A stretch of 64,000 nt of DNA from Paenibacillus donghaensis (lineage in GTDB: Bacteria > Bacillota > Bacilli > Paenibacillales > Paenibacillaceae). The DNA lies in assembly GCF_002192415.1 (NCBI RefSeq), contig NZ_CP021780.1:4402001-4466000 (forward strand). Reading direction: 5' to 3'. Positions 17,036-32,410 of the stretch are shown here, piece by piece. Below the pieces are notes generated by a model, which saw only the letters and a program-made list of their open reading frames with translations, did no database searches and was not told the origin of the DNA. Position numbers and translations under genes: made by a program. Position 1 is the first letter of the stretch, and each line of letters starts with the position of its first letter.

Positions 17036-18274
17036 TCACAGCGGCACAGACTGGAGGGGCACAGAAGCAGTCTGCTGCTGGACCAGCCGCTGCGTGTCAC
17101 GGGCAATCATCAGCTCCTCGTTGGTGGGAATGATATGCACGGCCACGCGGGAGCCGGGGGCACTGATCTTGCGCTCGCCGGGCGAGCGGGTCCGGTTCAG
17201 CTCCGTGTCCAGCTCCAGCCCCAGATAGGACAGGCTCTCGCAGACCTTGGCGCGGATATAGTCGGAATTCTCTCCGACCCCACCGGTAAAGATCAGTGTA
17301 TCCAGGCCATTCAGCACGGCGCAATAGGAGCCGATGTATTTGCGGATGCGCTGCACATACATGTTCAGCGCCAGCCTTGCGCCCTCATGGCCTTCATCGG
17401 CGCAGCGGATGATCTCGCGCAGATCGGAGCCCTGGCCGGAGATGCCGGCCAGCCCGCTGTGCTTGTTCAGCAGCGAATTGATCTCACCAAGACTCAGATT
17501 CTCCTTGGCCATCACAAAAGGAATGATCGCCGGGTCGATATCGCCGCAGCGGGTTCCCATCATCAGGCCTTCCAGCGGGGTCATGCCCATGCTGGTATCC
17601 ACAGACTCCCCGTCCCGGATGGCGGCAATGCTGGCCCCGTTGCCGATATGGCAGGAGATTACACGGGTTCCCTGGAGAGGTTGGCCGTTAAGTTCGCCCA
17701 GGCGTGCGCTGACATATTTATGCGAGGTTCCATGGAACCCGTATCTTCTGATTTTGTGGCGGTCATACAAGACTCTGGGCAGGGGATACATGTAGCTCTC
17801 CTGCGGCATCGTCTGGTGAAAAGCGGTATCAAACACACACACCATCGGCGTCTCCTCGCCCAGCAGCTGACGGAACGATTCGATCCCCTTCAGATTGGCC
17901 GGATTGTGCAGCGGCGCCAGCTCGATATTGCGTCTTACCGCCTGCAGTACCTCAGCATCCACCAGTGCTGAATCCGAGAAAAATTCGCCGCCATGGGCAA
18001 TCCGGTGCCCCACCGCAGCAATTTCCTGCACCGACGCGATAGACCCGCTGCCCGGATCAGTCAGTGCCGCAAGCATATGGGTGATAGCCTCCTTATGCTC
18101 CAGAATGCGCAGACCGGTCTGCACAGGCAGCGGAGGCGTACAATCCTGGCGAAGAATCGCCTGCTCCGTTCCAATCTCCTCAATAATCCCCTTCGCGATC
18201 ACCGATTCATCCTTCATATCAAACAGCTGATATTTCAAGGATGAGCTGCCGCTGTTAATGACCAGCACCTTCAT
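17036..18274 (-). CDS. ackA: Acetate/propionate kinase at the end of the GRM operon
   Basis: A 412-residue acetokinase of the ASKHA fold that converts acyl phosphate and ADP to acid and ATP. Motifs are VLVINSGSSSLKYQLF at the start, VFDTAFHQTMP, HIGNGASIAAI and IFTGGVGENS. The long upstream in-frame extension is rejected because GAGGAGG sits 8 bases before the ATG at 18274. It is the last gene of the operon, 40 bases after the activase, and most likely works on the acyl phosphate made by PduL (the role of PduW). No targeting peptide is visible, so it probably acts outside the shell. A general housekeeping acetate kinase role cannot be excluded. Confidence 0.93.
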   Translation of the reverse strand: MKVLVINSGSSSLKYQLFDMKDESVIAKGIIEEIGTEQAILRQDCTPPLPVQTGLRILEHKEAITHMLAALTDPGSGSIASVQEIAAVGHRIAHGGEFFSDSALVDAEVLQAVRRNIELAPLHNPANLKGIESFRQLLGEETPMVCVFDTAFHQTMPQESYMYPLPRVLYDRHKIRRYGFHGTSHKYVSARLGELNGQPLQGTRVISCHIGNGASIAAIRDGESVDTSMGMTPLEGLMMGTRCGDIDPAIIPFVMAKENLSLGEINSLLNKHSGLAGISGQGSDLREIIRCADEGHEGARLALNMYVQRIRKYIGSYCAVLNGLDTLIFTGGVGENSDYIRAKVCESLSYLGLELDTELNRTRSPGERKISAPGSRVAVHIIPTNEELMIARDTQRLVQQQTASVPLQSVPL

Positions 18275-18314
18275 AAACGGCTCCTCCTCTTCCATGCGTA
18301 CTACTTTTTTACAT

Positions 18315-19235
18315 TCAACCGCCGATTTGGCAGTACAGACCATAACCTTCCACGACATGGCGCAGACTCTCCATCTCCTGATTTGGCGGCGGAGTCTGAT
18401 GCTTCATGCTGTATTCGGTGTCCAAATAAGTGTATTTATTCTCACCCAGCCGGTGAAAAGGCAGCAGATGCAGCTCCCCCACACCTGGCAATTCCGCAGC
18501 AAACGAGGCGATGGCAGCAATCTCACGGATGGAGTCGTTGAAGCCTGGAACGACAGGCACGCGGATAATCACCTTCGCCCCCTGCCTGGCAATCCGCTGG
18601 GCGTTCTCCAGAATCAGTGAGTTGGACTGCTTCACGTAAGCATAGTGTTTGCTGTCCTCCATATGCTTGATGTCCAGCAGGACCGTATCGAGCAGCGGCA
18701 GCACGTTATCCAGCACAGCCGGATTGCAGAAGGCCGTGGTTTCAATCGCCGTGTTCCAGCCTTTATCCTTGCAGGCACGCAGCAGGTTCAGAGCGAAGTC
18801 GCTCTGATAGAGCGGTTCACCGCCGGAGAGGGTAATACCGCCGCCGGAACGTCGGTAATAAGCCTCATCCTTGCGCAGTATGGACACAATCTCCGAGGTG
18901 CTCATCTCTTTGCCGTTCATGGTCAGCGCCCCGCTGCCGCATTCGGCACTGCACAGTCCACAAGATACGCAGCTTAACCGGTTAACCGTCACCTTCGGCT
19001 GATAGCTGATGGCCCCCACCGGACAGACCTTGGCGCAGCGTCCACAGCTGACGCAGTTGTCCTCCTGCACCATCAGCTGGGTGCCGGGAGCCTGGGTTTC
19101 GGGGTTGCTGCACCAGGTGCAGCGCAGCGGACAGCCCTTCAGAAATACGATCGTGCGGATACCTGGACCGTCATGGAGCGAGAAGCGCTGGATATCGCTG
19201 ACCATCCCCTTGGCTTCCCAAATGACTTCATTCAT
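18315..19235 (-). CDS. Glycyl radical enzyme activase (radical SAM)
   Basis: A 306-residue radical SAM enzyme. It has the cluster motif C35-x3-C39-x2-C42 in GCPLRCTWC, then two ferredoxin-like 4Fe-4S motifs (CVSCGRCAKVCPVG and CVSCGLCSAEC), as in the activases of glycerol dehydratase and choline lyase. GGGITLSGGEPLYQ is the SAM-binding loop. It abstracts a hydrogen from the glycine of its partner to create the catalytic radical and needs anaerobic conditions. AGGAGG precedes the ATG at 19235 by about 6 bases. It lies 87 bases downstream of the dehydratase gene, matching dhaB1-dhaB2 order in Clostridium butyricum. Confidence 0.93.
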   Translation of the reverse strand: MNEVIWEAKGMVSDIQRFSLHDGPGIRTIVFLKGCPLRCTWCSNPETQAPGTQLMVQEDNCVSCGRCAKVCPVGAISYQPKVTVNRLSCVSCGLCSAECGSGALTMNGKEMSTSEIVSILRKDEAYYRRSGGGITLSGGEPLYQSDFALNLLRACKDKGWNTAIETTAFCNPAVLDNVLPLLDTVLLDIKHMEDSKHYAYVKQSNSLILENAQRIARQGAKVIIRVPVVPGFNDSIREIAAIASFAAELPGVGELHLLPFHRLGENKYTYLDTEYSMKHQTPPPNQEMESLRHVVEGYGLYCQIGG

Positions 19236-19322
19236 GGTGTGCCTCCTGATCAATGTGATGTCCTGTCCTTATGCGGAGAAGGAGGAGCCAATACTGCTCC
19301 TCTCCTCCCCTTCCTTCTATAG

Positions 19323-21896
19323 TTACATCGTCTGCTCCGTCCGGTTAATAATGTCATCCTGCAGTTTCTTGTCGAGTGTGGTGAAATGGGCGCTGTAGCC
19401 CGCCACACGGACGACGAGGTTCTTGTATTTCTCAGGATTGCGCTGAGCCTCCAGCAGCGTATCGCGGCTGATCACATTAAACTGCACGTGCATCCCCTTC
19501 TGGTCAAAATACCCTCTGACCAACGCCGCCAGCTTCGCCAGTCCCGCCGGTCCACTGAGCGCGGACGGATGGAACTTCTGGTTGAACAGCGTGCCGTTGG
19601 AGGCGATATGATGATCCAGCTTCGAGACGGAGTTGGCCGAAGCCGTAGGTCCACTGGTATCGCGGCCGGACACCGGCGACACACCATCGGCCAGCGGTTC
19701 GCCTGCCTGCCGTCCGTCTGCCGTTGCGCCGGTAGCGGCTCCCATCGGCACATTGGCCGAAGCCGGATACAGTCCCGGCTGGAAGGTTCCGCCGCGCGGA
19801 TTGACATGCTTCTGCACCTCGCGGCAGTAGACAAGCCCTACCTGGCGGGCCAATTCGTCGACCTCTTCGATGTCGTTGCCGAATTTCGGCGCGGCAATCA
19901 GCCACTCGCGCAGGCGGGTATCATTGCCTTGGCCCTGGCCCTGGCTCTGGCCGTTGCCCAGATCCACCTTCACATTCGCTGGAGCGCCCAGCTGGGCTAA
20001 CGAAATCTGGTTGCCTTCCAGGATGAACTTTTTGATCAGCTCCACAATATGCTCCTGGGTCAGCGTATCCAGCGAGACAGGGGCGGAGGCTGCAACAGCT
20101 GCCGGCTGAGCCAGGCCAAAGTTGCGTTCAAGCGCTGCCTTCAGCTCCGACAACGTTGTTTTCCGCTCTTCGAAAATCACCTTCTGGATGGCGTACATGG
20201 CATCTGCCACATTGGCAATACCTACCCCCTGCGGTCCGGTGAAGTTATAGAAGGCGCCGCCTTCCTGCAGCGATTTGCCTTTGCCGATACAGTCATACAC
20301 CATGGAGGACAGGAACGGCAGCGGTGCTCTTTCCGCATGGGCATAATCCACCGAGTTATCCGCTTGGGCCAGCAGGCTGACGAAATATTCCATCTGCTTG
20401 CGGTAGGCATCCATAATCTGATCTACAGAGGTGAAGGAGGCGAAGTCTCCAGTGGTGATCCCGGCTTTTTTGCCATTGACGGTACCGTTGCCGATGACAT
20501 ACTCCATCACCTTCGGCAGGTTGAAGAATGCGGCGTCATGCCAACCTTCGGTTTTGCCGCCTTTCTGCGGCTCCACGCAGCCGATAAGGCCGTAGTCACG
20601 CGCATCCGCCAGACTTACGGAGCGGCTGACCAGCGAGGGAATGATGACCTCATCGTTATAATAAGCCGGGAGTCCAAGACCCAGACGGCTGACCTCCGCT
20701 GCCTTCAGCAGCAGATCATCCGGTGTACGGTTCCAGACGCGGATCGAGACGGAAGGCTGCGGCAGCTTCACATGGGCAGTCGCCTCCAGGCAGGCGAACG
20801 ACAACTCGTTGGTGGCGTCCAGCCCTTCCTCATTCTGGCCGCCGACCACCAGATTCTGGAACATCGGATATCCGCCAAAAGCTTTGCTGGAGCCTTCGTC
20901 GCGGATTTTGTTAACTTCGTTTAGCTTCACCCACAGGCAGTCCAGCAGCTCCTGGGCTTCTTCATGGCGGATGGCACCGCGCTCGATATCCTGTTTGTAA
21001 TACGGGTACATGTATTGGTCAAAACGCATCGGAGACACGGAGTGCCCATTCGATTCCACCTGGATCAGCATGTGCACGAACCAGAAGCACTGCACCGCCT
21101 CGCTGAAGCTGGATGCCGGATTCGCCGGAACCTGCTCACAATTGCGGGCAATCTGCAGCAGCTCACGCTGGCGGACACCGTCGCTGCAGGCTGCAGCCTG
21201 GCTTTTGGCCAGCTCCGCGAACCGTTTGCCGAACTGGATAGCTGCTTCAGCAGAGATGATCACCGCGTTCAGAAACTGTTCTTTTTTGATATAACCCGGC
21301 AACGAACGGTCTGAGTCCGCTTTGGCCTGCTGCGCCTCCTCGATGATGCCCTTGAAGCCCTTGGACAGCACCTTTCCATAATCCACTGAAATATGGCCAA
21401 CGCCGTTATTATAATAATTACCTACCGTAAACACGTCTGCGTCCATCGCTGTCAGCGCCTCGGGAGACATGAAGGAGGTTGCCAGCTCCTGCACCGTGCG
21501 ACCGTTCCAGTATTCAAAAGAAAACTTCAGCTTGCTGACAGCATCGTCCGAGATCGTAAACACGTCACCCGTTCTGCGGGCCACCGTATCGAATTCGCTC
21601 AACAGCCAGCGGTTCGAGAACTCGGGAAAGATCTGGCAGCCTCTTGGCTTAGCCGTCAGATTGCCCACGACCAGCTCTTTGTCCCGGATCACCAGCGTCA
21701 TGTTCTGCAGAATATGCTCCAGCGCTTTGGCGCGGCGGATAATCATCGGCAGGTGCTCGGTTTGCTTAAAAGATTCCGTAATCAGGACCGCTCTTTCGGC
21801 TTCGATCTCCGGTGTGCCGGACATCAGGTTGTCGATCAGGTTGCCGATCCGGCCGGTTACTGCTGCTGATTTGGGCATATCATACACTTTTGTCAT
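19323..21896 (-). CDS. B12-independent glycerol/1,2-propanediol dehydratase (glycyl radical enzyme) with internal insert
   Basis: An 857-residue glycyl radical enzyme that removes water from a vicinal diol to give an aldehyde. The sequence follows C. butyricum DhaB1 (787 residues, from memory) closely. The residues corresponding to its active site are all present: His168, His285, Ser286, Tyr343, the thiyl Cys440, Glu442 (GCVEPQ) and Asp454. The radical glycine is Gly833 in VRVAGYSAHF. This argues against choline lyase. Residues about 594-658 have no counterpart in DhaB1; they hold an Ala/Pro linker, the amphipathic helix TQEHIVELIKKFIL and a Gly/Gln-rich linker, and may be a targeting segment. 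Glycerol and 1,2-propanediol cannot be told apart from sequence alone. AAGGGGGA precedes the ATG. Confidence 0.93.
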   Translation of the reverse strand: MTKVYDMPKSAAVTGRIGNLIDNLMSGTPEIEAERAVLITESFKQTEHLPMIIRRAKALEHILQNMTLVIRDKELVVGNLTAKPRGCQIFPEFSNRWLLSEFDTVARRTGDVFTISDDAVSKLKFSFEYWNGRTVQELATSFMSPEALTAMDADVFTVGNYYNNGVGHISVDYGKVLSKGFKGIIEEAQQAKADSDRSLPGYIKKEQFLNAVIISAEAAIQFGKRFAELAKSQAAACSDGVRQRELLQIARNCEQVPANPASSFSEAVQCFWFVHMLIQVESNGHSVSPMRFDQYMYPYYKQDIERGAIRHEEAQELLDCLWVKLNEVNKIRDEGSSKAFGGYPMFQNLVVGGQNEEGLDATNELSFACLEATAHVKLPQPSVSIRVWNRTPDDLLLKAAEVSRLGLGLPAYYNDEVIIPSLVSRSVSLADARDYGLIGCVEPQKGGKTEGWHDAAFFNLPKVMEYVIGNGTVNGKKAGITTGDFASFTSVDQIMDAYRKQMEYFVSLLAQADNSVDYAHAERAPLPFLSSMVYDCIGKGKSLQEGGAFYNFTGPQGVGIANVADAMYAIQKVIFEERKTTLSELKAALERNFGLAQPAAVAASAPVSLDTLTQEHIVELIKKFILEGNQISLAQLGAPANVKVDLGNGQSQGQGQGNDTRLREWLIAAPKFGNDIEEVDELARQVGLVYCREVQKHVNPRGGTFQPGLYPASANVPMGAATGATADGRQAGEPLADGVSPVSGRDTSGPTASANSVSKLDHHIASNGTLFNQKFHPSALSGPAGLAKLAALVRGYFDQKGMHVQFNVISRDTLLEAQRNPEKYKNLVVRVAGYSAHFTTLDKKLQDDIINRTEQTM

Positions 21897-21959: not shown

Positions 21960-22784
21960 TTAGGATGCCAGCTGGTCCTGATCCTTGTCTGACAGCACCA
22001 CTGCCGGCATCGCCGGATAAAAGGGTACGATCAGCTTGTGATACACCGCGCCGCCGACCAGTGCACCCGCAATCGGGCCAAATACCGGCACGATTAGCCC
22101 GTAAAGATTCGGCCCGAGGGCGTTCGTTCCCCAGCCGGAGAGCAGCAGCAGCAAGCGCGGACCCAGGTCACGCGCCGGGTTCATCGCGAAGCCGGTGAGG
22201 TGGCCGAAGCTGATCCCCAGCACGGCCACGGTCAGCCCGATGGATACGGCGGCCAGACCCACCTTGGGGGCGGCGCCATTGCGGCCGTCGGTTACGGCCA
22301 GGATCACCAGCATAAGAACGGCGGTGATGATGAGTTCGATCAGTCCGGCTTGCAGCAGGGACAGCCCGCTCTGCGGGAACGTACTGAACATTCCGGCCGT
22401 GGCCCAGCCGCCGTCCGTACTGCGGACAATGCCTGCTCCCTGCTCATGAGCAAGGATGGTATTGCGGTAGATCGCGTACACAGTCGCTGCTCCGGCAAAT
22501 GCGCCGAGGATCTGCGCCGCAATATAAGGGATCACTTTGCTGCGCTGGAATCCGCTCCAGACGGCCAGGCTGATCGTCACCGCCGGATTAAGATGTGCGC
22601 CCGAGACATGACCGGCAATAAAGACCCCTAGCATGACTGCGGACCCCCAGGTCAGCGTCAGCTCCGCCCAGGTAATGTCTGAACCTCCGGCAACCAGCGA
22701 GACTACAGCCGCGAGCCCGATAAACAGAAAGATGAAGGTTCCAATGAACTCCGCGAGGCATTCGCCGAGCAGCGTCTTTTTCAT
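21960..22784 (-). CDS. MIP-family glycerol/diol facilitator (PduF/GlpF-like)
   Basis: A 274-residue channel with six membrane helices and the two NPA boxes, HLNPAVTIS and AMNPARDLGP. The aspartate after the second NPAR is the mark of aquaglyceroporins rather than water channels. It should allow the diol substrate into the cell, which fits its position 63 bases before the dehydratase gene. GGGAGAG precedes the ATG. It follows the 56-bp direct repeats in the gap after the alcohol dehydrogenase gene. Confidence 0.9.
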   Translation of the reverse strand: MKKTLLGECLAEFIGTFIFLFIGLAAVVSLVAGGSDITWAELTLTWGSAVMLGVFIAGHVSGAHLNPAVTISLAVWSGFQRSKVIPYIAAQILGAFAGAATVYAIYRNTILAHEQGAGIVRSTDGGWATAGMFSTFPQSGLSLLQAGLIELIITAVLMLVILAVTDGRNGAAPKVGLAAVSIGLTVAVLGISFGHLTGFAMNPARDLGPRLLLLLSGWGTNALGPNLYGLIVPVFGPIAGALVGGAVYHKLIVPFYPAMPAVVLSDKDQDQLAS

Positions 22785-22918: not shown

Positions 22919-24052
22919 CTAATACACTCTACGAAACAGCTGTTCCAGCTGCTGAACATTGACCCCGCGCGGATTGGTCGCGGTGCATTTGTCCTTCAGC
23001 GCTGCCAGGCTCATCGCGGGCAGCGCCGCTTCATAAGCCTCCCGGTCGATGCCGGCAGCTTCCAGCGACGCCGGCGTGCCGGTCAGCTTCTGCAGTGCCT
23101 GCACCGCCGAAACCAGACTGCCCACTCCCTCCGACACCGTTGCCGCCGGGAGATGCAGGTGATAAGCCAGCTTGCGGTAGCGCATCGCTGCCTGGCTCTC
23201 ACCGCCGCTCTCCAGGTCAGCGTTGTATTCGATAATGTAGGGCAGCAGCACGGCGTTCGCCCGTCCGTGCGGCAGATGGAAATGCCCGCCCAGCGTATGT
23301 GCCATGCTGTGGGTGATGCCCAACGCCGCGTTCGTAAACGCCATGCCTGCCAGACAGGAAGCATTGTGCAGGCGCTCCCGCGCCTCCAGATCGTCGCCGC
23401 TGTGGTAAGCACGCAGCAGATAATCAAAGATCAGCTCGATGGTCTTCTCGCTGAGCGCATCCGTATAATCGGAATGCTCCGTCGACACATAGGCTTCGAT
23501 GGCATGCGTCAGCGCATCGATGGCGGTATCGGCTGTAATCTGCGGCGGCACGGTTCTCAGAAAGGTGGCATCCATAATTGCCACATCCGGGATCATATCC
23601 TGGGAGACGAGCGGAATCTTCGTGTCGCCCATTGTCATGACCGAATAAGAGGTCACTTCCGATCCGGTGCCGCTTGTCGTCGGGATGGCAATGAACAGCG
23701 GCTTGCCGCCGTCATCCGCATTCCCGGCAAGCTGGCGGGCGAAGAGCAGAATGCTTTTGGCCGCGTCAATGGTGGACCCTCCGCCCAGAGCAATAATCAG
23801 ATCGGGACGGAAGGCCAGGTATTCCTTCACTCCGGCGGCCACCACCTCAACAGGCGGATCAGGCCGGATGCCGGTGAAGAGCTGGTAATCCTCCACACTG
23901 GTCTTCAGAATATGAATTAAGGTATCCGCGAACCCGGCCTGCACCATAAATGGATCGGTAATGATCAGCGCCCGGCGGTTATCGAGCAGCGTTAAATATT
24001 CAAGCGCACCTGAATCAAAATAAATCTCCGTCTTTACACAAAAGCGGTTCAT
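22919..24052 (-). CDS. Iron-containing alcohol dehydrogenase (PduQ/DhaT-like)
   Basis: A 377-residue group III alcohol dehydrogenase. It shows the NAD-binding GGGSTIDAAK (90-99), the PTTSGTGSE loop, and metal ligands at about Asp179, His183 (IDALTHAIEA), His248 and His262 (ITHSMAHTLGGHFHLPHG). It reduces the aldehyde to propanol or 1,3-propanediol and regenerates NAD+ for the aldehyde dehydrogenase, probably inside the shell. The first four bases overlap the end of the vertex-protein gene, so the two are translationally coupled. No separate targeting helix is seen. Confidence 0.92.
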   Translation of the reverse strand: MNRFCVKTEIYFDSGALEYLTLLDNRRALIITDPFMVQAGFADTLIHILKTSVEDYQLFTGIRPDPPVEVVAAGVKEYLAFRPDLIIALGGGSTIDAAKSILLFARQLAGNADDGGKPLFIAIPTTSGTGSEVTSYSVMTMGDTKIPLVSQDMIPDVAIMDATFLRTVPPQITADTAIDALTHAIEAYVSTEHSDYTDALSEKTIELIFDYLLRAYHSGDDLEARERLHNASCLAGMAFTNAALGITHSMAHTLGGHFHLPHGRANAVLLPYIIEYNADLESGGESQAAMRYRKLAYHLHLPAATVSEGVGSLVSAVQALQKLTGTPASLEAAGIDREAYEAALPAMSLAALKDKCTATNPRGVNVQQLEQLFRRVY

Positions 24053-24336
24053 TCCTCTGCCTCCGTTCCACGCCCTTCGTCGGTCTGCAAATCGTCCACA
24101 ATCCCGACAATCGACATATCTGCGGATAAGCGGATGTCCTCATACATGGAGCTGCCCCAGTCAATCAGCACCAGGTCCCCCATTCCCGCGCCAACCATAT
24201 CAATGGCAACGAACACTTCATCACCGGTAATTCTGCGCTTCTCGTCCACTGATTTGATCATAAGCAGCTTGGCGCCGATCAGCTTCTCACATTTCTGGGT
24301 AGAGACGACCTTGCCGATTACTGTAGCCAGATGCAT
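24049..24336 (-). CDS. BMC-P vertex protein (EutN/CcmL/PduN family)
   Basis: A 95-residue pentamer-forming shell protein. The family pattern is clear: MHLATVIGKVVSTQK, LIGAKLLMIKSVD, AIDMVGAGMGDLVLI and SSMYEDIRLSADMSIVGIVD. Such pentamers cap the twelve vertices of a microcompartment. The C-terminus ends in an acidic tail of about ten residues. GGGAGG precedes the ATG. Only one BMC-P gene is present. Confidence 0.94.
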   Translation of the reverse strand: MHLATVIGKVVSTQKCEKLIGAKLLMIKSVDEKRRITGDEVFVAIDMVGAGMGDLVLIDWGSSMYEDIRLSADMSIVGIVDDLQTDEGRGTEAEE

Positions 24337-24351
24337 GCTGTGATTCCTCCC

Positions 24352-25851
24352 TTATCCCATCAACTGCCGGAGCAGCTGCTGTACCATCGCTTCCAGTTCA
24401 GCCTCATTCATTGCTGCCGGTGCCGCCGCTGCTGCCGCTACTTCAGGCGTCCCCTGCTTCGCCGCACACACCGGCGCAGGCTCCCGCAAATCCTCCATCT
24501 CGCGCACACCATAAGCCAGCCGCCTGATATTCAGCAGGTTCATTGGCCCGATGTTATCCGATGTGGAGCTGCCGCCAACCGCACCGCAGCCCAGCGTCAT
24601 GGCCGGAGGAAGATTCGTGGTGGCTCCAATGCCGCCCAGCGCTGCCGGAGTATTAACAAGCAGGCGTGACACCTTCTTGTGGAGCGCAAACTCCCGGATC
24701 ACGGCTTCATTGCGTGAATGGATCGTCATGGTATGCCCTTTACCTTCCCCTTCCAGCAGCTCCATACAGCGCTCGCAGGCCGATTTCCAATCCTCCGCCT
24801 CATAAAAAGCCAGCACAGGCGTCAGCTTCTCCCGGGAATAAGGATTGCTGTGCGAAACGGTCGTCTGCTCCGAGATCAGCACCCGGCTTCCGGCCGGAAT
24901 GCTGAAGCCGGCCATTGCCGCCAGTTTCTCCGGCGCCTTGCCAACCGCCTGCGGATTAATCGTTCCATTGCCCCGCAGCAGGAAGGAGCCGAGCTGGGCC
25001 GATTGCACGCCGCTGAGGAAATAGGCGCCTTGCCGCAGCAGCTCCTGTACAACCTGCTGTCTGCTCTCCTTCTCCACCACAATCGATTGCTCGGAAGCGC
25101 AGATCACGCCGTAATCAAACGTTTTGCTGTCGATAATCTGCTTGACCGCGCGCGGGATATCCGCCGACCGCTCTATGAAGGCCGGGCCATTGCCTGGGCC
25201 GACGCCGATGGCAGGTGTGCCGGAGCTGTAAGCCGCCTTCACCATTGCTTCTCCGCCGGTGGCCAGGATAAGCGAGGTGTCGCGGTGCTTCATCAGCTCG
25301 CTGGTGCCCGGCATGCTGAGAATAGACAGGCAGCCCAGAATGCCTTCAGGCGCTCCCGCCTGCACCGCCGCAGCGGAGAGAATGGCTACCGTCTCGCTGA
25401 TGCAGCGGCGTGCGGACGGATGAGGCGAAAAGACGATAGCGTTGCCTGTCTTCAGCGCTAGCAAGCTTTTGTAAATCACCGTCGAGGTTGGATTGGTTGA
25501 AGGAATCAGCCCGGCGATTACACCGACCGGTACGGCGATATCCACGATCTGATCGGCTTCATGGCTGGCGATTACACCAACGGTCTTCATGTCCTTAATA
25601 TGCCGGTGCAGATGCCTGCTGGCGAATGTATTCTTAATCACCTTGTCTTCCCAGCGGCCGAAGCCGGTCTCCTCATGGGCCATTTGGGCCAGCTTGACGG
25701 CGGACTGCTCCGCAGCTGCGGCCACCTGCGCTACAATGTGGTCAATTTGCTGCTGGCTGTAGCTTTGCAGAATCTTCTGTGCTTCTTTGGCGGCTGCGAG
25801 AATGACGCGAACCTCCTGTATGGATTGCAGATCATGATCCAGAATCTTCAT
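24352..25851 (-). CDS. CoA-acylating aldehyde dehydrogenase (PduP/EutE-like) with C-terminal targeting peptide
   Basis: A 499-residue enzyme converting aldehyde, NAD+ and CoA to acyl-CoA. The catalytic cysteine is Cys251 in DYGVICASEQS; PSTNPTSTVIYKSL, LILATGGEAMVKAAYSSGTP and GVGPGNGPAF are typical. The body ends at about residue 455. An Ala-rich linker (VAAAAAAPAAM) then leads to the amphipathic helix NEAELEAMVQQLLRQLMG, a standard encapsulation peptide placed at the C-terminus as in GRM enzymes (PduP carries it at the N-terminus). AGGAGG precedes the ATG. Confidence 0.94.
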   Translation of the reverse strand: MKILDHDLQSIQEVRVILAAAKEAQKILQSYSQQQIDHIVAQVAAAAEQSAVKLAQMAHEETGFGRWEDKVIKNTFASRHLHRHIKDMKTVGVIASHEADQIVDIAVPVGVIAGLIPSTNPTSTVIYKSLLALKTGNAIVFSPHPSARRCISETVAILSAAAVQAGAPEGILGCLSILSMPGTSELMKHRDTSLILATGGEAMVKAAYSSGTPAIGVGPGNGPAFIERSADIPRAVKQIIDSKTFDYGVICASEQSIVVEKESRQQVVQELLRQGAYFLSGVQSAQLGSFLLRGNGTINPQAVGKAPEKLAAMAGFSIPAGSRVLISEQTTVSHSNPYSREKLTPVLAFYEAEDWKSACERCMELLEGEGKGHTMTIHSRNEAVIREFALHKKVSRLLVNTPAALGGIGATTNLPPAMTLGCGAVGGSSTSDNIGPMNLLNIRRLAYGVREMEDLREPAPVCAAKQGTPEVAAAAAAPAAMNEAELEAMVQQLLRQLMG

Positions 25852-25888: not shown

Positions 25889-26665
25889 TTATTTCTTCAG
25901 AAAACGGAGCTCTATCCTGCGCGCTTCCAGCAGCTCGCGGGCCAGCGGTGTGATGATGGCATCCTCCCGTGTGCTCAGCGTACCCCCTGGAATATGCTGC
26001 ACATCGGCCAGGGTAATGACCGAATCCGGCAGATGGATGGCGTCCGGCGGGTTCAGGGCGGCTGCCCTTTCGCTGCCTGGCGAAATGCCTGCTGCAGCGT
26101 ATCCCTCCGGCAGCAGTCCAGGCGGGCTCAGCGTTTCACGGAACTCCGCCAGTGTGACCACCTTGACGCCGAAATCCTGCAGCGTGCGCTCATAGCCCAG
26201 CAGCATCCCGTTGTACGCCGCGTTGCCGCCCATCCCGGCTGCGGCCTGCACGGCATGCAGCGGATCATAGCCATCACGGACCGCGACGATCTCCTTGCGC
26301 AGCATAATCGCTGCGGCGATGCCAGCAGTTAACGGGCTGTCGGTTATGCCAAGCGCGATCTTGCTTAATGCGCCGCGGGTGGCGAGCGGAATCAGCACCA
26401 GCTCCGCCTCCCGCAAGGCTTGCTCGATTTCGGCCAGCTCCGTTAATCTAGACGCGGACAGCTGTGACAGCAGCTTCTCATCCAGCATAGGCAAGCCGGG
26501 ACTGTCATCGATGACAAGGCTGTAGCGGTACAGCGGGTAATCCGCCAGCACCCTGGCTACACAACCTTCGTTCACTGTACCGCCGCTGAGAAACACAACG
26601 ACTCTCCTGCTCAGCGCAGGCAGCAGCGACTCCAGCATCTGGCGGATTAAGGCCTCGGCGTTCAT
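25889..26665 (-). CDS. GRM-associated flavoprotein-like protein
   Basis: A 258-residue protein resembling the flavoprotein-fold protein often found in glycyl-radical microcompartment loci. VVVFLSGGTVNEG, VLIPLATRGALSKIALGITDSPLTAG and GYDPLHAVQAAAG are suggestive. The function is unproven; a role in flavin or electron handling is only a guess. The N-terminus NAEALIRQMLESLLPAL is amphipathic and resembles a targeting peptide. ATG at 26665 overlaps the eutJ stop (TGATG) and is 6 bases after GAGGTGG. The C-terminal half (about 200-258) is not recognised. Confidence 0.7.
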   Translation of the reverse strand: MNAEALIRQMLESLLPALSRRVVVFLSGGTVNEGCVARVLADYPLYRYSLVIDDSPGLPMLDEKLLSQLSASRLTELAEIEQALREAELVLIPLATRGALSKIALGITDSPLTAGIAAAIMLRKEIVAVRDGYDPLHAVQAAAGMGGNAAYNGMLLGYERTLQDFGVKVVTLAEFRETLSPPGLLPEGYAAAGISPGSERAAALNPPDAIHLPDSVITLADVQHIPGGTLSTREDAIITPLARELLEARRIELRFLKK

Positions 26666-27513
26666 CACAGGCCACCTCTTCCCGCACTCATTGCGATCCC
26701 GATCGGAGTAACCAGCAGCGGATTATCCGGCTTCCGTACGCTGAGCGAAGTGTATTTGGCGAAGACCTCCTCGATCCCCTGCAGGCAGCAGCTGCCTCCT
26801 GCCAGATACACCGTTTCGATATCCTGCGGAATGTAGCTCATCGCAATATGGGCCATTTTCTCAATCACCGGCTGCACGACGGGGGACAGCATGCGGTGCT
26901 GCTCCGGGTCATGCTTCAGCTGCTCCGCCGCAGCGAAATCCACATCGAGGTTCCCGGAGATTACCAGCGTCATATGCACGCCGCCTGTCGGTTCATCGGC
27001 GGAAGCCGCCACCGTGCCGTCCCTGATAATGGAGATGCCGGTTGTGCCGCCGCCGATGTCCACCACCGCGCCGCTACTTACCTGCAGCACCTTCGCTGCC
27101 GCTTCAGGCTCATCAATCACATGGATCACCCGGAAGCCCGCAGCTTCAACCACATGGGTGATCACCTTCACGTTGCCGGGCGAAATCCCAGGCGGAATGG
27201 CCGTAGCCGCTTCGTATAGCACCGTGCCGAGGCGCTGCTCCAGACGTTCCTTCATCTCTTGCAGCAGCGTAACCGCACGGACGTATTCAACCACAATGCC
27301 ATCTCTGACCACATGGGCTTTCTCCAGAGCGCCGCCTACCGGCCTATCATCCTGGTCAAGCACCGTAATCACGATATTCGAGGTACCCAGATCCACGCCG
27401 ACCTTGTAGGGCAGCTTAAAGTCTTTATCCTCAAAAGGCTGTGAATCATCCATCGCCAGCTCCATTTCACGGACCAGCAGATTGACCCGCTCCATGCTGT
27501 GCTCAGCGCCCAT
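26665..27513 (-). CDS. eutJ: EutJ-like ASKHA chaperone-type protein
   Basis: About 282 residues with an actin/Hsp70-type ATPase fold. KVGVDLGTSNIVITVLD is the phosphate-1 loop, VVDIGGGTTGISII phosphate-2, and VYLAGGSCCLQGIEE the adenosine loop. EutJ-like proteins accompany ethanolamine and GRM loci, and a chaperone or assembly role is assumed. An in-frame GTG at 27522 overlaps the pduL stop, but the ATG at 27513 is better spaced from the weak AAGAG site; the choice is uncertain. Confidence 0.85.
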   Translation of the reverse strand: MGAEHSMERVNLLVREMELAMDDSQPFEDKDFKLPYKVGVDLGTSNIVITVLDQDDRPVGGALEKAHVVRDGIVVEYVRAVTLLQEMKERLEQRLGTVLYEAATAIPPGISPGNVKVITHVVEAAGFRVIHVIDEPEAAAKVLQVSSGAVVDIGGGTTGISIIRDGTVAASADEPTGGVHMTLVISGNLDVDFAAAEQLKHDPEQHRMLSPVVQPVIEKMAHIAMSYIPQDIETVYLAGGSCCLQGIEEVFAKYTSLSVRKPDNPLLVTPIGIAMSAGRGGL

Positions 27514-27518
27514 AGGCT

Positions 27519-28175
27519 TCACTCTTGCTGCACTGCAGTGATCCGAACGGTGTCTCCGTTCTTCACCTCTGCCGCATTTGCCTCATCGGTATCGATATGC
27601 ATCTCCAGCACGAAATCACGGCTGGCACGAATACGCACATCATGAAGCGTAATTTTCTTGCCGGAATCCGCCGACTCTACAGCAACCGAATCCCCATTCT
27701 TCACCCCATACCGAGCTGCATCCTCTTCGCTCATATGAATATGGCGTTTGGCGCAGATCGTCTTATTGTTCATCACCAGCATGCCTTTGGGTCCGATCAC
27801 ACACAGGCTCGCGGAGCCTGCCGTATCCCCTGAATCGCGGACGGGGGGGTTAATCCCGAGCGCAAAAGCATCACTGCGCGAAATTTCGATCTGGCTGTCA
27901 GGCCGCAGCGGCCCCAGTACGCGGACACTCGGAAAACAGCCTTTGGGTCCGGCGATACAAACAGTTTCCGCAGCGGCAAATTGACCGGGCTGCTTCAGAT
28001 TGCTTCGGACCGTCAGCTCATGGCCAGCTCCGAACAGCACCTCCATATCCTGGCGGTTCAGATGGATATGGCGGGCGGAGATTCCAACCGGAATGCTATA
28101 GCTGCGGTCCTTTACTCTAAGCGTGCTTGCGATTTCCGCCGCAAGGCTGTGAACCAGTTGATTATTTATGTCCAT
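27519..28175 (-). CDS. pduL: PduL-type phosphotransacylase with N-terminal targeting helix
   Basis: About 218 residues. Two beta-barrel repeats carry the zinc histidines in VGISARHIHLN and AKRHIHMSEEDA, and VIGPKGMLVMNN also fits PduL. It moves the acyl group from CoA to phosphate inside the shell, recycling CoA for the aldehyde dehydrogenase. The N-terminal helix NNQLVHSLAAEIASTLRV precedes the core, as expected for encapsulated PduL. The start is ATG 28175 (TGATG overlap with the upstream gene) or GTG 28178. Confidence 0.93.
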   Translation of the reverse strand: MDINNQLVHSLAAEIASTLRVKDRSYSIPVGISARHIHLNRQDMEVLFGAGHELTVRSNLKQPGQFAAAETVCIAGPKGCFPSVRVLGPLRPDSQIEISRSDAFALGINPPVRDSGDTAGSASLCVIGPKGMLVMNNKTICAKRHIHMSEEDAARYGVKNGDSVAVESADSGKKITLHDVRIRASRDFVLEMHIDTDEANAAEVKNGDTVRITAVQQE

Positions 28176-28972
28176 CACGGTTGACCATCCTTATTTGTTT
28201 TGGCGCGGCGCGGCCGGTAGTGCAGGCAGAGACTGGCCGGCTGGCCTTTGATCCGCCCGCACAGCGGATCGCCGCACAGATTGCAGCTGATCTCGGTCCG
28301 CTGCACTTGCTGCACTTGCTGCACTTGCTCCCCTTGCTGCTCTTGCTGCAGCACTTGCTGTAGCTCTTGAAGCTCCTGCCGCGGTTCATGCTGTGGCTCT
28401 TCCGGCTCTGGCTGCAGCTCCTGCTGCAACTCCTGATCCATAGCTTCGACCACTGGCGCCTGTTCCGCTTCCGTATCCGCTGCAGGTTCCCCGCCTGCAG
28501 ACTCTTCTGCATCGAGCTCTTCCACATCAGACTCATTAGCTGCCGACAGCTCAGCTTCAGCTGCCTCTTCCTCTGCAACAGGGCTGTCAGCAGCACGCTG
28601 ACCGGCAGCAGACTCTGCCGCCTTCGTCTTCCCGCCCGCAGTTTCCTCCAGCGGCTCTGCCGGCATCTGTTCCGCCCCCGGCTCGGTGAATACGGTTTCG
28701 GGGGAATGGACCAGCCGGCTGATGCCTTCCGCCGGGCGGGCAATGACGATCGCCGCTATAACCGCTCCCAGCTTGCTGGCGCTGCTCTTCGCTCCCTCTA
28801 CCGCAGCTTTGACCGCACCCACATCTCCGGTAATTTTGACCACGATCCGCCCGTCCAGCGCTTTCTCGTAGCCCAGCAGCTTGACATGGGACGATTTCAC
28901 ACAGGTATCGGCAGCCTCCAGCGCCGCCGGATAACCGACCACCTCAATCAGACCAAGGGCATTCCCATTCAC
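28175..28972 (-). CDS. BMC-H shell protein with long acidic tail and C-terminal cysteine motif (PduK-like)
   Basis: About 265 residues. Residues 1-90 are one BMC domain ([32 protein letters not shown]). Residues 95-225 form a low-complexity Glu/Ala/Gln-rich linker including QELQQELQPEPEEPQ. The C-terminus has CNLCGDPLC followed by a fourth cysteine 11 residues on, a likely Fe-S or metal site as proposed for PduK. The role of the tail is unknown; electron transfer across the shell has been suggested for such proteins. GTG at 28972 lies 8 bases after AAGGAG and gives a normal BMC start; GTG 28981 is too close. Confidence 0.88.
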   Translation of the reverse strand: MNGNALGLIEVVGYPAALEAADTCVKSSHVKLLGYEKALDGRIVVKITGDVGAVKAAVEGAKSSASKLGAVIAAIVIARPAEGISRLVHSPETVFTEPGAEQMPAEPLEETAGGKTKAAESAAGQRAADSPVAEEEAAEAELSAANESDVEELDAEESAGGEPAADTEAEQAPVVEAMDQELQQELQPEPEEPQHEPRQELQELQQVLQQEQQGEQVQQVQQVQRTEISCNLCGDPLCGRIKGQPASLCLHYRPRRAKTNKDGQP

Positions 28973-29015
28973 AGTAGCCACTCCTTCAACGTTTTACATG
29001 TATGCTTGTGCTGCT

Positions 29016-29858
29016 CTACAGATTGGACTGTGTCATCGATACCGGGTTGTGGCCCATCGATCTCAGTACGCTTACGCCTACATCGCGGGCGGAGATCACC
29101 GATTGGCGGACCGCGCCGGAATCGCCTGTAATCGTCACGATAATTTCATTCGAACGGGCTGTGCCTTTATCCGGACTGGCGTAGGTTACAATCTCCACAT
29201 TGGCTGTTTTGAGCGCGGTGTCTGCCATCAGCAGGCCAATCGCAGCCGGAGCACCAACCAGAATACCGAAGGATTTGCCCGCCGGTGCGCCAAAAGCTTT
29301 CTCCAGCGCCAGACTCGCACGTGCCGTATAATGCAGTTCTACATGTCCGGCATCGCAAGGGTAGACATCCCCGAAGGTACGCGGCAGCTCCTTGAGCACC
29401 ACTTCCACCGCCCGGCGGGAGTCGGAGACATCCTCGGAGGCAAAAATAATGATACAGCCGTGTCCAGCCCCGCCCTTGGTGTCCCGTGCCATCTCAATCG
29501 AAACCACTTCCGTGTTGGTCGCCTTCACCGCCTCGTCAGCGGCCATAATATGCGGACCTGCGCCGGTACGCGAGCTGATGATGCCGATTGAACGGTATCT
29601 CGGATCCAGGCCCATGCTCTCATGCAGATGGCGGTCCAGATTGGCGATCACCAGGCCCACGGTATCCCCCATGGCTGAGCCGACATATTCCGTTATCGCT
29701 TTGTAATCGGTTGTCACGTCTTGTTCCCTCTTTTCCGTATACTGTTGGTTGTTCAGCGGAAGGCCTGCGGCAGCATCGGCTGCCGGGGAAGAAGGCACGC
29801 CGCCGGGAATTGCCCGGACGGCCGCTTCAATCACCTGCTTCAGAATTGCTTCATCCAT
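29016..29858 (-). CDS. Tandem-domain BMC-T shell protein (PduB-like)
   Basis: A 280-residue protein with two fused BMC domains (about 60-155 and 165-270). PduB-type signatures are AMGDTVGLVIANLD, IISSRTGAGPHIMAADEA and VGAPAAIGLLMADTALKTA. Trimers of this type form gated facets. The N-terminal extension starts with the helix MDEAILKQVIEAAVRAIPGG and a linker; in PduB the N-terminal region links shell to cargo. GGGGTGA precedes the ATG. It lies second in the operon. Confidence 0.93.
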   Translation of the reverse strand: MDEAILKQVIEAAVRAIPGGVPSSPAADAAAGLPLNNQQYTEKREQDVTTDYKAITEYVGSAMGDTVGLVIANLDRHLHESMGLDPRYRSIGIISSRTGAGPHIMAADEAVKATNTEVVSIEMARDTKGGAGHGCIIIFASEDVSDSRRAVEVVLKELPRTFGDVYPCDAGHVELHYTARASLALEKAFGAPAGKSFGILVGAPAAIGLLMADTALKTANVEIVTYASPDKGTARSNEIIVTITGDSGAVRQSVISARDVGVSVLRSMGHNPVSMTQSNL

Positions 29859-29873
29859 ACTCTCACCCCGGTT

Positions 29874-30158
29874 TTATTGTTCAGGCAGCTTCGGCAGAAT
29901 CTTCTCAACGTCCATATGCGGTCTTGGAATCACATGTACCGAAATGACCTCGCCTACCCGTTTCGCGGAAGCTACTCCCGCATCCGTTGCCGCCTTGACA
30001 GCACCTACATCTCCTCTGACCATAACGGTTACCAGACCGGAGCCGATTTTTTCATAGCCGATCAAGGTCACATTCGCAGCCTTTACCATTGAATCCGCTG
30101 CTTCGATTGCGCTGACCAGCCCTTTTGTTTCAATAAGTCCGAGTGCTTCCTGCCGCAT
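29874..30158 (-). CDS. BMC-H hexameric shell protein (PduA/PduJ-like)
   Basis: A 94-residue single BMC domain: [56 protein letters not shown] and [14 protein letters not shown] are the hallmarks of the major shell hexamer. An upstream ATG at 30176 overlaps the ribosome binding site GGAGGTG, which lies 8-9 bases before the ATG at 30158, so the shorter form is correct. It is the first gene of the operon. Confidence 0.95.
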
Positions 30159-30254
30159 AATTTTGCGCACCTCCATAGATTTGAACTTGCGTTTTCATGT
30201 CCATTGTACGAAGAACCGGGCCGCAAATATTTGACTTTAACCACTCGAAACAGG

Positions 30255-30338: not shown

Positions 30339-30421
30339 AATAAGCTGTGGCATAATGCCACTATCTTGACAGCTGCCTCCTTGCCGGAGGAGCAGGGTTT
30401 CTGAAAGGAATGGCGATAACC

Positions 30422-31651
30422 ATGTCCGAAGTGATTCAACTTGCCGACATTATTGAAGTGGAAGCATTTAAGAGCATACAAGAGAAGCTGGCCAAAATCG
30501 TGGTGTTTCCCGTTATAACGATTGATGCGGAAGGCAATCCAATGGGCACGTGGAGCAATTTCTCCCCATTCTGCAAGCTGGTGCGTTCTTCCCCCGAAGG
30601 GGAGCGGAAATGCATCGGCTGTGATTATGAGGCCGGGAAGCTGGCGATGAAACACCGCAAACCACAAATCTACCGCTGTCATCTGGGTCTGCAGGACTGT
30701 GTGGCGCCAATCATTGCCGAAGGTTATTTTCTGGGGGCGGTGCTGGGAGGGCAGGTCCTGACGGATGAAGCGGACCGTGCGAAGATTGACGCCGAGCGTA
30801 TCTCAGCTGAATTCGGACTGCCGCTGCAGAAGGTGCTGGAGGCGATTGGGCAGATTCCGCTCGTCAGCCGGCAATACCTGGAGGATTCGGTCAATTTCGA
30901 TACCTTTGTTGCGAACTATATTGCCGAGATCAGTATGAAAAAAATGGTGCAGGAACAATTTCTCAAGGAAAGCCGCGAGAATCTGCTGCTGGAGCAGAAA
31001 GCCAAAACGATGGAGCTGAAGAAACTTCAGGCACAGATTAATCCCCATTTTCTGTTCAACACACTGAACACCATCGCCCGTATGGCCCTGATCGAAAATG
31101 CCCCGGAAACGGAGGAGCTGATCTATAACCTCTGCGACCTGCTGCGCTATAATCTGAAGAATGTCGAGGAATTCCCCAAGATCCGCTCGGAAATCGAGTC
31201 GATTAAGAAATATCTCTACATCCAGACTCTGCGCTACAGCGACCGGATTCAATATGAAATTGAAGTCGACCCTGAGATTATGGATTACCGCATCCCGTCG
31301 ATGGTGCTGCAGCCCTTGGTGGAGAATGCCTTCATGCACGGACTGGAGCAGAAGCGCGACGGCGGCACCGTGCGGATCAGCGGCTGCCGAACGCCGGATA
31401 ACCGGATTGTCATCACCGTTGCGGATAACGGCAGAGGTTTTAAGCCGGATATTCTGCGCGCGTTCGCCAGCTGGGATGAGGACAACGGCACACATACGGG
31501 AATCGGACTATTCAACACACATGAACGGCTGCGCGGCTATTTCGGCAAATCATACGGCCTCAGTATCCGCAGCCAGCCGGATGTCAGCACGCTGGTCCAT
31601 ATCACCCTGCCCTGCTTGAAGGAACAGCTGCAAGCCCCGAATGGAGGATGA
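30422..31651 (+). CDS. PocR-domain sensor histidine kinase for the GRM operon
   Basis: About 409 residues. The N-terminal PocR sensory domain (residues 1-170) has cysteines in ERKCIGCDYEAG and YRCHLGLQDCVAPI. A helical linker leads to a LytS/YesM-type kinase with the phosphorylated histidine in QINPHFLFNTLN, and the ATPase N box LQPLVENAFMHG and G boxes ADNGRGF and TGIGLFN. No membrane segment is seen, so it senses a cytoplasmic signal; PocR domains are linked to 1,3-propanediol-type compounds. ATG 30410 touches the ribosome site; ATG 30422 is preferred, with wide spacing. Confidence 0.9.
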   Translation: MSEVIQLADIIEVEAFKSIQEKLAKIVVFPVITIDAEGNPMGTWSNFSPFCKLVRSSPEGERKCIGCDYEAGKLAMKHRKPQIYRCHLGLQDCVAPIIAEGYFLGAVLGGQVLTDEADRAKIDAERISAEFGLPLQKVLEAIGQIPLVSRQYLEDSVNFDTFVANYIAEISMKKMVQEQFLKESRENLLLEQKAKTMELKKLQAQINPHFLFNTLNTIARMALIENAPETEELIYNLCDLLRYNLKNVEEFPKIRSEIESIKKYLYIQTLRYSDRIQYEIEVDPEIMDYRIPSMVLQPLVENAFMHGLEQKRDGGTVRISGCRTPDNRIVITVADNGRGFKPDILRAFASWDEDNGTHTGIGLFNTHERLRGYFGKSYGLSIRSQPDVSTLVHITLPCLKEQLQAPNGG

Positions 31652-31657
31652 ACATTT

Positions 31658-32410
31658 GTGATTAAACTGATGATAGTTGAGGATGAGCCGCTGGAGCGGC
31701 TGGCGCTGCGCACAATGATTCAGCGGCTGCCGCTGGATATAGAAGTGGTGGAGGATGCCCGCAACGGCGAGGAGGCGATCCGCAAGGTGCAGTTGCTGCG
31801 GCCGCAAATTCTGCTGATGGATATCCGCATGCCCGAGAAGAACGGACTGGAGGCCCAGCAGCAGATTATTCACAGCTTCCCGCAGACGAAGACGATTATT
31901 CTGACTGCCTACAGTGATTTCCAATATGCCCGCGAAGCCCTGCAGTGTGGGGTCATTGACTATCTGCTGAAGCCTGTGCCGCCCCACCAGCTCAAATCTG
32001 CGCTCGACAAGGCGATCCAGTCCTTGAATCAAGGCGAAGCTATGGACGTAGAGGCAATCCCTGCCGCTCCCAAGCCAGACAAAGATCTGATTGAGACAGC
32101 ACTGCGATATATTGAACGGCGCATTACAAGCGAGCTGACTCTGTCTGAGGTTGCCGCGTCCATTCACCTGAATCCGCAATATTTCAGCCGCCTGTTCAAA
32201 AGCCGCACCGGGGTCACCTTTACCGAATACGTCACCGTGCAGAAGATCAGCCGGGCCAAGGATATGCTGCTGCACAGCAGCCTGCCGGTCTACCGGGTGG
32301 CAATTGATCTGGGGTTCTCGGACGCAGCCTATTTCTCGCGTGTCTTCTTCAAATATGAACAGCAGACCCCGCTGCAGTTCAAGAAGCAGGCCGAGCTGGC
32401 CCTGCGGTAG
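31658..32410 (+). CDS. AraC-family response regulator of the GRM operon
   Basis: A 250-residue YesN-type regulator. The receiver domain (1-120) has IVEDEPLERL, the phosphoacceptor Asp55 in LLMDIRMPEKNG and the switch lysine in YLLKPVPP. The C-terminal double helix-turn-helix (about 150-250) shows VAASIHLNPQYFSRLFK and VAIDLGFSDAAYFSRVF. It starts at GTG 31658; its GGAGG overlaps the kinase stop, so the pair is co-translated. It is the likely activator of the divergent shell operon, like DhaA with DhaAS in C. butyricum. Confidence 0.92.
   Translation: MIKLMIVEDEPLERLALRTMIQRLPLDIEVVEDARNGEEAIRKVQLLRPQILLMDIRMPEKNGLEAQQQIIHSFPQTKTIILTAYSDFQYAREALQCGVIDYLLKPVPPHQLKSALDKAIQSLNQGEAMDVEAIPAAPKPDKDLIETALRYIERRITSELTLSEVAASIHLNPQYFSRLFKSRTGVTFTEYVTVQKISRAKDMLLHSSLPVYRVAIDLGFSDAAYFSRVFFKYEQQTPLQFKKQAELALR

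Follow-up and report, generated by a model that had tools for sequence, protein, structure and literature searches.

How can an enzyme be directed into a bacterial microcompartment when its candidate targeting signal lies in the middle of the chain? The question is raised by a glycyl radical enzyme (GRE) of Paenibacillus donghaensis, encoded within 64,000 nucleotides (positions 4,402,001 to 4,466,000 of NZ_CP021780.1; hereafter the window) of an 8.54-Mb single-contig genome. This enzyme contains a 66-residue insert which is probably an internal encapsulation peptide targeting the GRE to the shell; a rough probability of 0.85 is given to this reading. It is based on the position of the insert, its low order, the shell and pathway genes around it, its repeated absence outside shell loci, purifying selection, two relatives (L143 and L174; L numbers denote loci and G numbers genomes) and the literature on the Rhodopseudomonas palustris enzyme.

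Under this reading, two flexible linkers would hold a short amphipathic helix off the enzyme barrel. The helix would dock the GRE to shell proteins and/or other cargo during assembly of a propanediol microcompartment. The activating enzyme, bound to the GRE, would be carried in by piggy-backing; a complex of GRE and activating enzyme has been reported in vitro for R. palustris. The features concerned are as follows; DhaB1 is the glycerol dehydratase of Clostridium butyricum and pLDDT is the predicted local distance difference test score.

19323..21896, minus strand: GRE of the 1,2-propanediol (diol) dehydratase type, 857 residues (PF02901 and PF01228)
19917..20114, minus strand: insert, residues 595-660, predicted internal encapsulation peptide region (66 residues vs 3 in DhaB1)
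20019..20057, minus strand: predicted helix, residues 614-626 (QEHIVELIKKFIL), candidate docking helix (AlphaFold2 helix, low pLDDT)

The enzyme and its insert

Both the PFL-like and the glycine radical domain are present in the window GRE. It belongs to the diol/glycerol dehydratase branch and is not a choline lyase: its choline_CutC score (571 bits) is below the cut-off of 1050 and its nearest structures are glycerol and diol dehydratases. The best solved relatives are 1r8w (glycerol dehydratase) and 5i2a (diol dehydratase), and the top Foldseek matches to its model are 5i2a, 5i2g, 1r8w and 9rco. Cys440 and Gly833 are invariant in 124/124 GRE sequences examined. This residue count covers 96 insert-bearing sequences (the window GRE and three duplicates included) and 28 insert-less sequences (one duplicate), and leaves out L143 and L173-L175.

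An earlier sequence-only reading of the window had claimed an insert of about 65 residues in the dehydratase, and the insert is real. In a phmmer alignment with DhaB1 (1r8w), window residues 13-594 pair with 9-587 and residues 661-857 with 591-787; the 66 residues at 595-660 stand against three in DhaB1, a net excess of 63. The coordinates originally proposed were 19923-20117, and the alignment gives 19917-20114; similarly, the chain was said to resume at AAPKFGND but resumes at RLREWLIAAPKFGND, a few residues earlier. The Ala/Pro-rich stretch, the helix TQEHIVELIKKFIL and the Gly/Gln-rich stretch which had been described are all found in the insert. Residues at the site are hereafter those lying between the NF and APKFGND columns, both conserved; by this measure the window GRE has 75 and each of the eight outgroup GREs 12-15.

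The insert is internal and does not occupy the N- or C-terminal position of a classical encapsulation peptide. Fifteen residues precede Arg16 in the window GRE and the median in relatives, counted from the nearest Met, is 13; the window GRE is without an N-terminal encapsulation peptide. An assembly artefact was considered and ruled out, as the same insert, two residues shorter, is present in the Paenibacillus oralis GRE (L001; 95% identity), the closest among the fetched loci.

Predicted structure of the insert

The AlphaFold2 model of the window GRE, made from a 55-sequence alignment, is mostly confident (mean pLDDT 85.9). Values below 50 are found at residues 597-609 and 627-655. The helical content predicted for the insert consists of the helix at 614-626, in blocks averaging pLDDT 58 and 52, and a turn at 633-637; both are of low confidence. 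With low pLDDT used as a proxy for flexibility, the helix is predicted to be flanked by flexible linkers. Structure prediction was one of the checks that the sequence-only reading had proposed, with a helix packed into the core named as evidence against. The model gives two low-pLDDT linkers and a low-confidence helix, and these low values led to rejection of the idea that the insert is confidently placed in the enzyme core. By reading, a helix-like pattern is kept in the insert across the closest relatives of the window.

Insert and shell genes in relatives

Relatives were collected as the best 80 of 368 candidates in genome contigs, and the sample leans to close relatives. Two plasmid loci, 42 GREs from one clostridial family (36 of 206 genomes) and three further loci (L173-L175) were added. 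The 124 loci first tallied, less four duplicates (L151, L157, L160, L162) and with these three, give 123 distinct relatives. A sample of Clostridia (52 of 391 genomes) yielded 55 matches, 46 of which are outside the tally. Shell genes were called at E <= 1e-4 by profiles built from the window BMC proteins and their matches; the flanks examined are uneven, with 8-10 kb each side for many loci and a few kb for others (L011, L029, L045, L079). Genome-wide checks for shell genes used PF00936.

Insert-bearing GREs (53-87 residues at the site) make up 93/123 relatives, insert-less GREs (12-32 residues) 29/123, and one GRE, L143, is shortened (47 residues). Shell genes are present on the same stretch in 74 of the 93 insert-bearing cases. 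They adjoin only one of the 29 insert-less GREs (L174); the other 28 have none on the stretch examined. Shell genes are nevertheless present elsewhere in 18 of the 24 insert-less GRE genomes searched, so it is the locus, rather than the genome, to which the insert is linked. This association with shell genes supports a role in targeting.

Three genomes (G044, G050 and G076) contain both forms of the enzyme. G044 has its insert-bearing copy (L171) inside a shell locus and its insert-less copy (L135) outside one; in G050 and G076, neither copy adjoins shell genes on the stretch examined.

Some loci (L016, L017, L020, L062, L070, L163, L165, L167 and others) have an insert-bearing GRE and activating enzyme away from shell genes which are found elsewhere in the genome; these are satellite GRE loci. 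The longest insert, with 87 residues at the site, is in L173 (8403-11027) and has an extra segment containing CC.

Direction of change and selection

Trees of 81, 99, 90 and 51 rows were built; the last three were thinned by hand. The 51-GRE tree was built without the insert columns, rooted on three insert-less GREs and scored with L143 as insert-bearing; its outgroup rows are long branches which were flagged by the tree program. Six changes of insert state are needed on this rooted tree, at least four of them forced by well-supported branches, and single-change trees appear in 0/200 bootstraps. Read parsimoniously, the insert was gained a single time at the base of the diol dehydratases and lost about five times. 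It may also have been gained repeatedly at the same site, because the inserts of distant branches are not recognisably alike. On average, loss pairs with shell-gene absence in 3.6 of four well-supported independent pairs and with the opposite in 0.1.

Between the window and P. oralis, the ratio of nonsynonymous to synonymous substitution rates (dN/dS) is 0.17 for the insert vs 0.08 for the rest of the GRE; the insert is under purifying selection between these two. Its dN/dS is below 1 in 14/14 pairs.

Shortened and displaced tags

The L143 GRE (L143:8442-10904, genome G091) has 47 residues at the site and retains GETIMCDIEKLKLDDKKILVEDL. Its stretch carries no shell genes, and its 4.5-Mb genome gives no match to PF00936; its sister, L161, is an insert-bearing GRE in a shell locus. 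By reading, the L143 insert has lost its first linker and gained charged residues in the helix. At 0.29 (p 0.94), its best hydrophobic moment is the lowest of 26 loci, though a shorter stretch was scored. Helix decay is suggested.

L174 (L174:6836-9325, genome G582) has two BMC-H genes, one BMC-T gene, an aldehyde dehydrogenase and an activating enzyme, and its GRE has no insert. Thirty-eight residues precede its conserved Arg, vs a median of 13 counted from the nearest Met. The N-terminal MAIDERLIEDTIKEVLRKIQ extension, MAIDERLIEDTIKEVLRKIQKNSSS, has a helix moment of 0.71; the start ATG is 8 bases after AAGGAGGG, a strong ribosome-binding site. The extension resembles a classical N-terminal encapsulation peptide. 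Compared with 124 other loci, L174 has the longest N-terminus by nearest Met; by first Met, L040 (83), L073 (39) and L050 (37) are as long or nearly so, but all three have nearer Mets.

The sister of L174, L175, has neither insert nor shell genes in the 19.5 kb examined. A search of the 25 other genomes of the L174 class, of which 3 belong to the same order, gave no L174-like enzyme (E <= 1e-250). The simplest story, drawn from one genome, is that the L174 branch would have lost the internal tag and later gained an N-terminal one. A broader history is tentative and somewhat short of an even chance: the tag may have been gained once and discarded when a dehydratase leaves the shell. The shortened tag of L143 would then perhaps be decaying, in a genome without shell-gene matches, and L174, from a branch that had lost the internal tag, would have returned to a shell locus carrying a new tag at its N-terminus. 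If this is true, encapsulation peptides are exchangeable modules with no fixed place in the protein, and relatives which lack the insert in nature offer ready controls for tests of tags.

Alternative explanations

A number of results weigh against targeting. The amphipathicity of the window helix is ordinary and not exceptional; its hydrophobic moment of 0.46 is equalled by 10% of all 14-mers in the protein. Among 26 other loci, 14 failed to beat shuffles at p<0.05 on hydrophobic moment (12 passed), and the matching 14-mer of the insert-bearing L156 has a moment of 0.31, hardly above the 0.29 of L143. The insert evolves faster than the rest of the enzyme in 13/14 pairs, some of them with very few changes. 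There are only three to four well-supported independent pairs in the tree comparison (sign test p 0.25 and 0.125), a number too small for the sign test to reach 0.05. Nineteen of the 93 insert-bearing GREs have no shell genes alongside on the stretch examined.

In 18 of those 19 cases, the genome has PF00936 genes elsewhere (in G009, one match only). Only L002 departs from this. It is an insert-bearing GRE on a 7.8-kb contig from a fragmentary metagenome-assembled genome (MAG), with no shell gene found on its stretch or in its genome; its near-copy L003 sits in a shell locus. The objection that shell-free relatives carry the insert too was rejected, with one case in 93 left over. Shell-free homologues with the same insert were what the sequence-only reading had named as evidence against itself; they are not the rule, and 28 of 29 insert-less GREs lack adjoining shell genes.

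A further result on the same side comes from sequence similarity. A profile of ten insert helices of the window clade was scanned against aldehyde dehydrogenase, PduL, alcohol dehydrogenase, activating enzyme, EutJ and PDU_like proteins (61 scans, 11 loci) and did not single out the aldehyde dehydrogenase or PduL tails. The two scans with p<0.05, at an internal site of the L026 aldehyde dehydrogenase (0.015) and position 24 of the L015 PduL (0.04), do not exceed chance; the L004 aldehyde dehydrogenase has the C-terminal tail as its best site (p 0.34). The profile gave the L009 and L010 inserts scores of only 4.8, and so fails to recognise even those. Another pattern, which catches only four aldehyde dehydrogenase tails (p 0.045-0.139), aligned Ala/Pro linkers in the window and L001. 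The negative result fits the lack of sequence conservation reported for encapsulation peptides (PMC6325248), and the identity of the insert as such a peptide is unproven by similarity.

The insert may instead be mainly an oligomerisation element which glues GREs together in core assembly, although this is unlikely. The insert of the Roseburia inulinivorans GRM5 enzyme (GRM, glycyl radical enzyme-associated microcompartment) is reported to be in the oligomer interface, a point which also counts against shell docking, and the R. palustris GRE precipitates with its insert and is more soluble without it (both PMC5311937). In addition, the 843-residue R. inulinivorans protein has 836-837 residues resolved in 5i2a and 796 in 5i2g; we infer that the roughly 40 residues ordered only in 5i2a are the insert. 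Oligomerisation alone leaves the absence of the insert at shell-less loci unexplained, and it overlaps with targeting, as encapsulation peptides may serve both shell docking and core assembly (PMC6325248).

That the insert tracks substrate (1,2-propanediol vs glycerol or another diol) and tunes catalysis, with an indirect link to shells, is very unlikely. Residue 286 is Ser in 96/96 insert-bearing sequences (window included) and Ala in 17/28 insert-less ones. However, the Ala286 sequences are the group with 23-24 residues at the site, which forms one clade in the trees, and Ser286 is kept by other insert-less lineages (the Thermincola group; L144/L145/L149/L150/L155; L147/L152/L153; L174/L175). 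The insert is also predicted to be disordered, and the truncated R. palustris enzyme stayed active (PMC5311937). Least probable is a neutral disordered linker kept by inertia, to which little credence is given; low pLDDT, low sequence conservation, length changes and faster evolution than the rest would fit it, but the consistently low dN/dS and the helix-like pattern kept in the closest relatives do not, and the insert is absent several times over but only once in a shell locus (L174).

Encapsulation of the GRE by means of its insert remains the preferred reading, supported by low order, the shell locus and the mostly insert-less state of shell-free relatives.

Comparison with known systems

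An internal tag had been called an unusual way to load the dehydratase; it is instead the described rule in GRM3/4/5 dehydratases (PMC5311937, PMC6325248). The idea of an internal tag is right but already published, and the window insert adds one more case. Whether other GRM dehydratases have the insert was a question left by the sequence-only reading; 93/123 relatives do, as does the group described in PMC6325248 (Ferlez 2019), where a predicted encapsulation peptide of about 60 residues is given for all GRM3/4/5 1,2-propanediol dehydratase GREs. These are of the same enzyme class as the window GRE, which has 66. L174, which belongs to this enzyme branch and is shell-associated but lacks the insertion and has an N-terminal extension, would be an exception to that generalisation. 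Flexible surface loops may hold encapsulation peptides according to PMC6971018.

The GRM3 GRE of R. palustris BisB18, compared here by its published description, has an 'intramolecular encapsulation peptide' (PMC5311937; Zarzycki 2017). It resembles the window GRE in enzyme family, in linkers around a helix, in its shell locus and in an insert absent from C. butyricum glycerol dehydratase. Two helices of about 15 residues with a short loop between are predicted in R. palustris, whereas the prediction for the window, of low confidence, has a single helix of 13 residues and a helical turn of 5; the host also differs, the window being from Paenibacillus. It is the removal of the two helices that leaves the R. 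palustris enzyme more soluble and still active.

The R. inulinivorans diol dehydratase (5i2a/5i2g) shares its fold with the window GRE (template modelling score 0.91) and has an insert at the same place; the sequence of this insert, the one reported in the oligomer interface, is not recognisably like that of the window. Another diol dehydratase, 9rco (816 residues), has 8 residues at the site, though the construct may be truncated. C. butyricum DhaB1, a B12-independent glycerol dehydratase, shares the core fold and has no insert; PMC5311937 states that it has no microcompartment association. Clostridium ljungdahlii GRM3 GRE3 (L007, strain ERI-2, taken as the same locus) has 72 residues at the site and 65% identity to the window GRE. 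The C. ljungdahlii locus is induced by 1,2-propanediol, polyhedra are reported, and a table lists aquaporin, EutJ and PduB (PMC12016505); gene content is like that of the window locus, but gene order differs.

In the papers cited here, support for an internal tag consists of prediction and solubility effects (PMC5311937, PMC6325248). The natural experiment seen here (repeated absence outside shell loci, a shortened intermediate, an apparent N-terminal swap and three two-form genomes) offers independent support and matched enzymes for a loading test. In the open-licence PMC text searched, no earlier account was found of repeated loss, a shortened intermediate or a move to the N-terminus. For engineers, the data suggest that a mid-chain loop can host a tag; the site tolerates 12 to 87 residues in nature.

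The microcompartment locus

Two BMC-H genes, one BMC-T gene and one BMC-P gene adjoin the window GRE, which is thus in a shell-protein locus. Along the minus strand, the order is BMC-H, PduB-type BMC-T, BMC-H with a four-cysteine tail, PduL, EutJ, the protein resembling PDU_like, acylating aldehyde dehydrogenase, BMC-P, iron alcohol dehydrogenase, aquaporin-type facilitator, GRE, activating enzyme and kinase-like gene. The genes around the GRE, by coordinate, are:

17036..18358, minus strand: acetate/propionate kinase-like gene (open reading frame, named by reading the sequence)
18315..19253, minus strand: glycyl-radical enzyme activating protein (TIGR02494, over cut-off)
21960..22784, minus strand: MIP/aquaporin-type diffusion facilitator (PF00230)
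22919..24052, minus strand: iron-type alcohol dehydrogenase (NCBIfam matches, none over cut-off)
24049..24336, minus strand: BMC-P pentameric shell vertex protein (PF03319)
24352..25851, minus strand: acylating aldehyde dehydrogenase (TIGR02518, over cut-off) with a C-terminal helix-like tail (by reading)
25889..26668, minus strand: protein weakly resembling PDU_like (PF15953, below cut-off)
26665..27522, minus strand: EutJ-like protein (TIGR02529, over cut-off)
27519..28178, minus strand: PduL phosphate propanoyltransferase (NF011652, over cut-off; PF06130)
28175..28981, minus strand: BMC-H shell protein (PF00936) with a C-terminal four-cysteine (PduK-like) tail (by reading)
29016..29858, minus strand: PduB-type BMC-T shell protein (TIGR04501, over cut-off)
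29874..30176, minus strand: BMC-H shell protein (PF00936)
30410..32410, plus strand: divergent PocR-domain histidine kinase (PF10114 and PF06580) and response regulator (by reading; open reading frames)

The BMC-H protein at 28175-28981 ends in a PduK-like CNLCGDPLCGRIKGQP...C tail, a possible metal site. A pattern scan found four-cysteine BMC-H tails in 16/124 loci, mostly close relatives (L006 and L157 are the same). The likeness to PduK draws in part on the description in PMC6325248, which gives PduK as rare in GRM loci.

Origin of the locus and other features

Among 398 genomes of the class (G000 and 397 others), such a GRE at E<=1e-190 is found in one, that of the window itself. The window locus was probably acquired horizontally, given this isolated occurrence and near relatives on the trees which are mostly Clostridia. 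Eight plasmid records contain full-length GREs which are 54-59% identical to that of the window (matches H1-H8; L129 is NZ_CP029037.1). The two that were opened are both in microcompartment loci, one of them carried by a conjugative IncHI2A plasmid from Salmonella Senftenberg, where transposase genes flank it.

A second, distant GRE (L099, G005:C18:15552-17321; 33-36% identity) lies amid shell genes of a Vallitalea MAG. It is among the eight outgroup GREs, lacks the insert and has an N-terminus that is long; a choline-lyase type with an N-terminal tag would fit. Elsewhere in the window, positions 12081-15740 on the minus strand encode a surface protein of 1219 residues; it has a (VATPSPSATPD)n spacer and what reads as an LPQTG cell-wall anchor.

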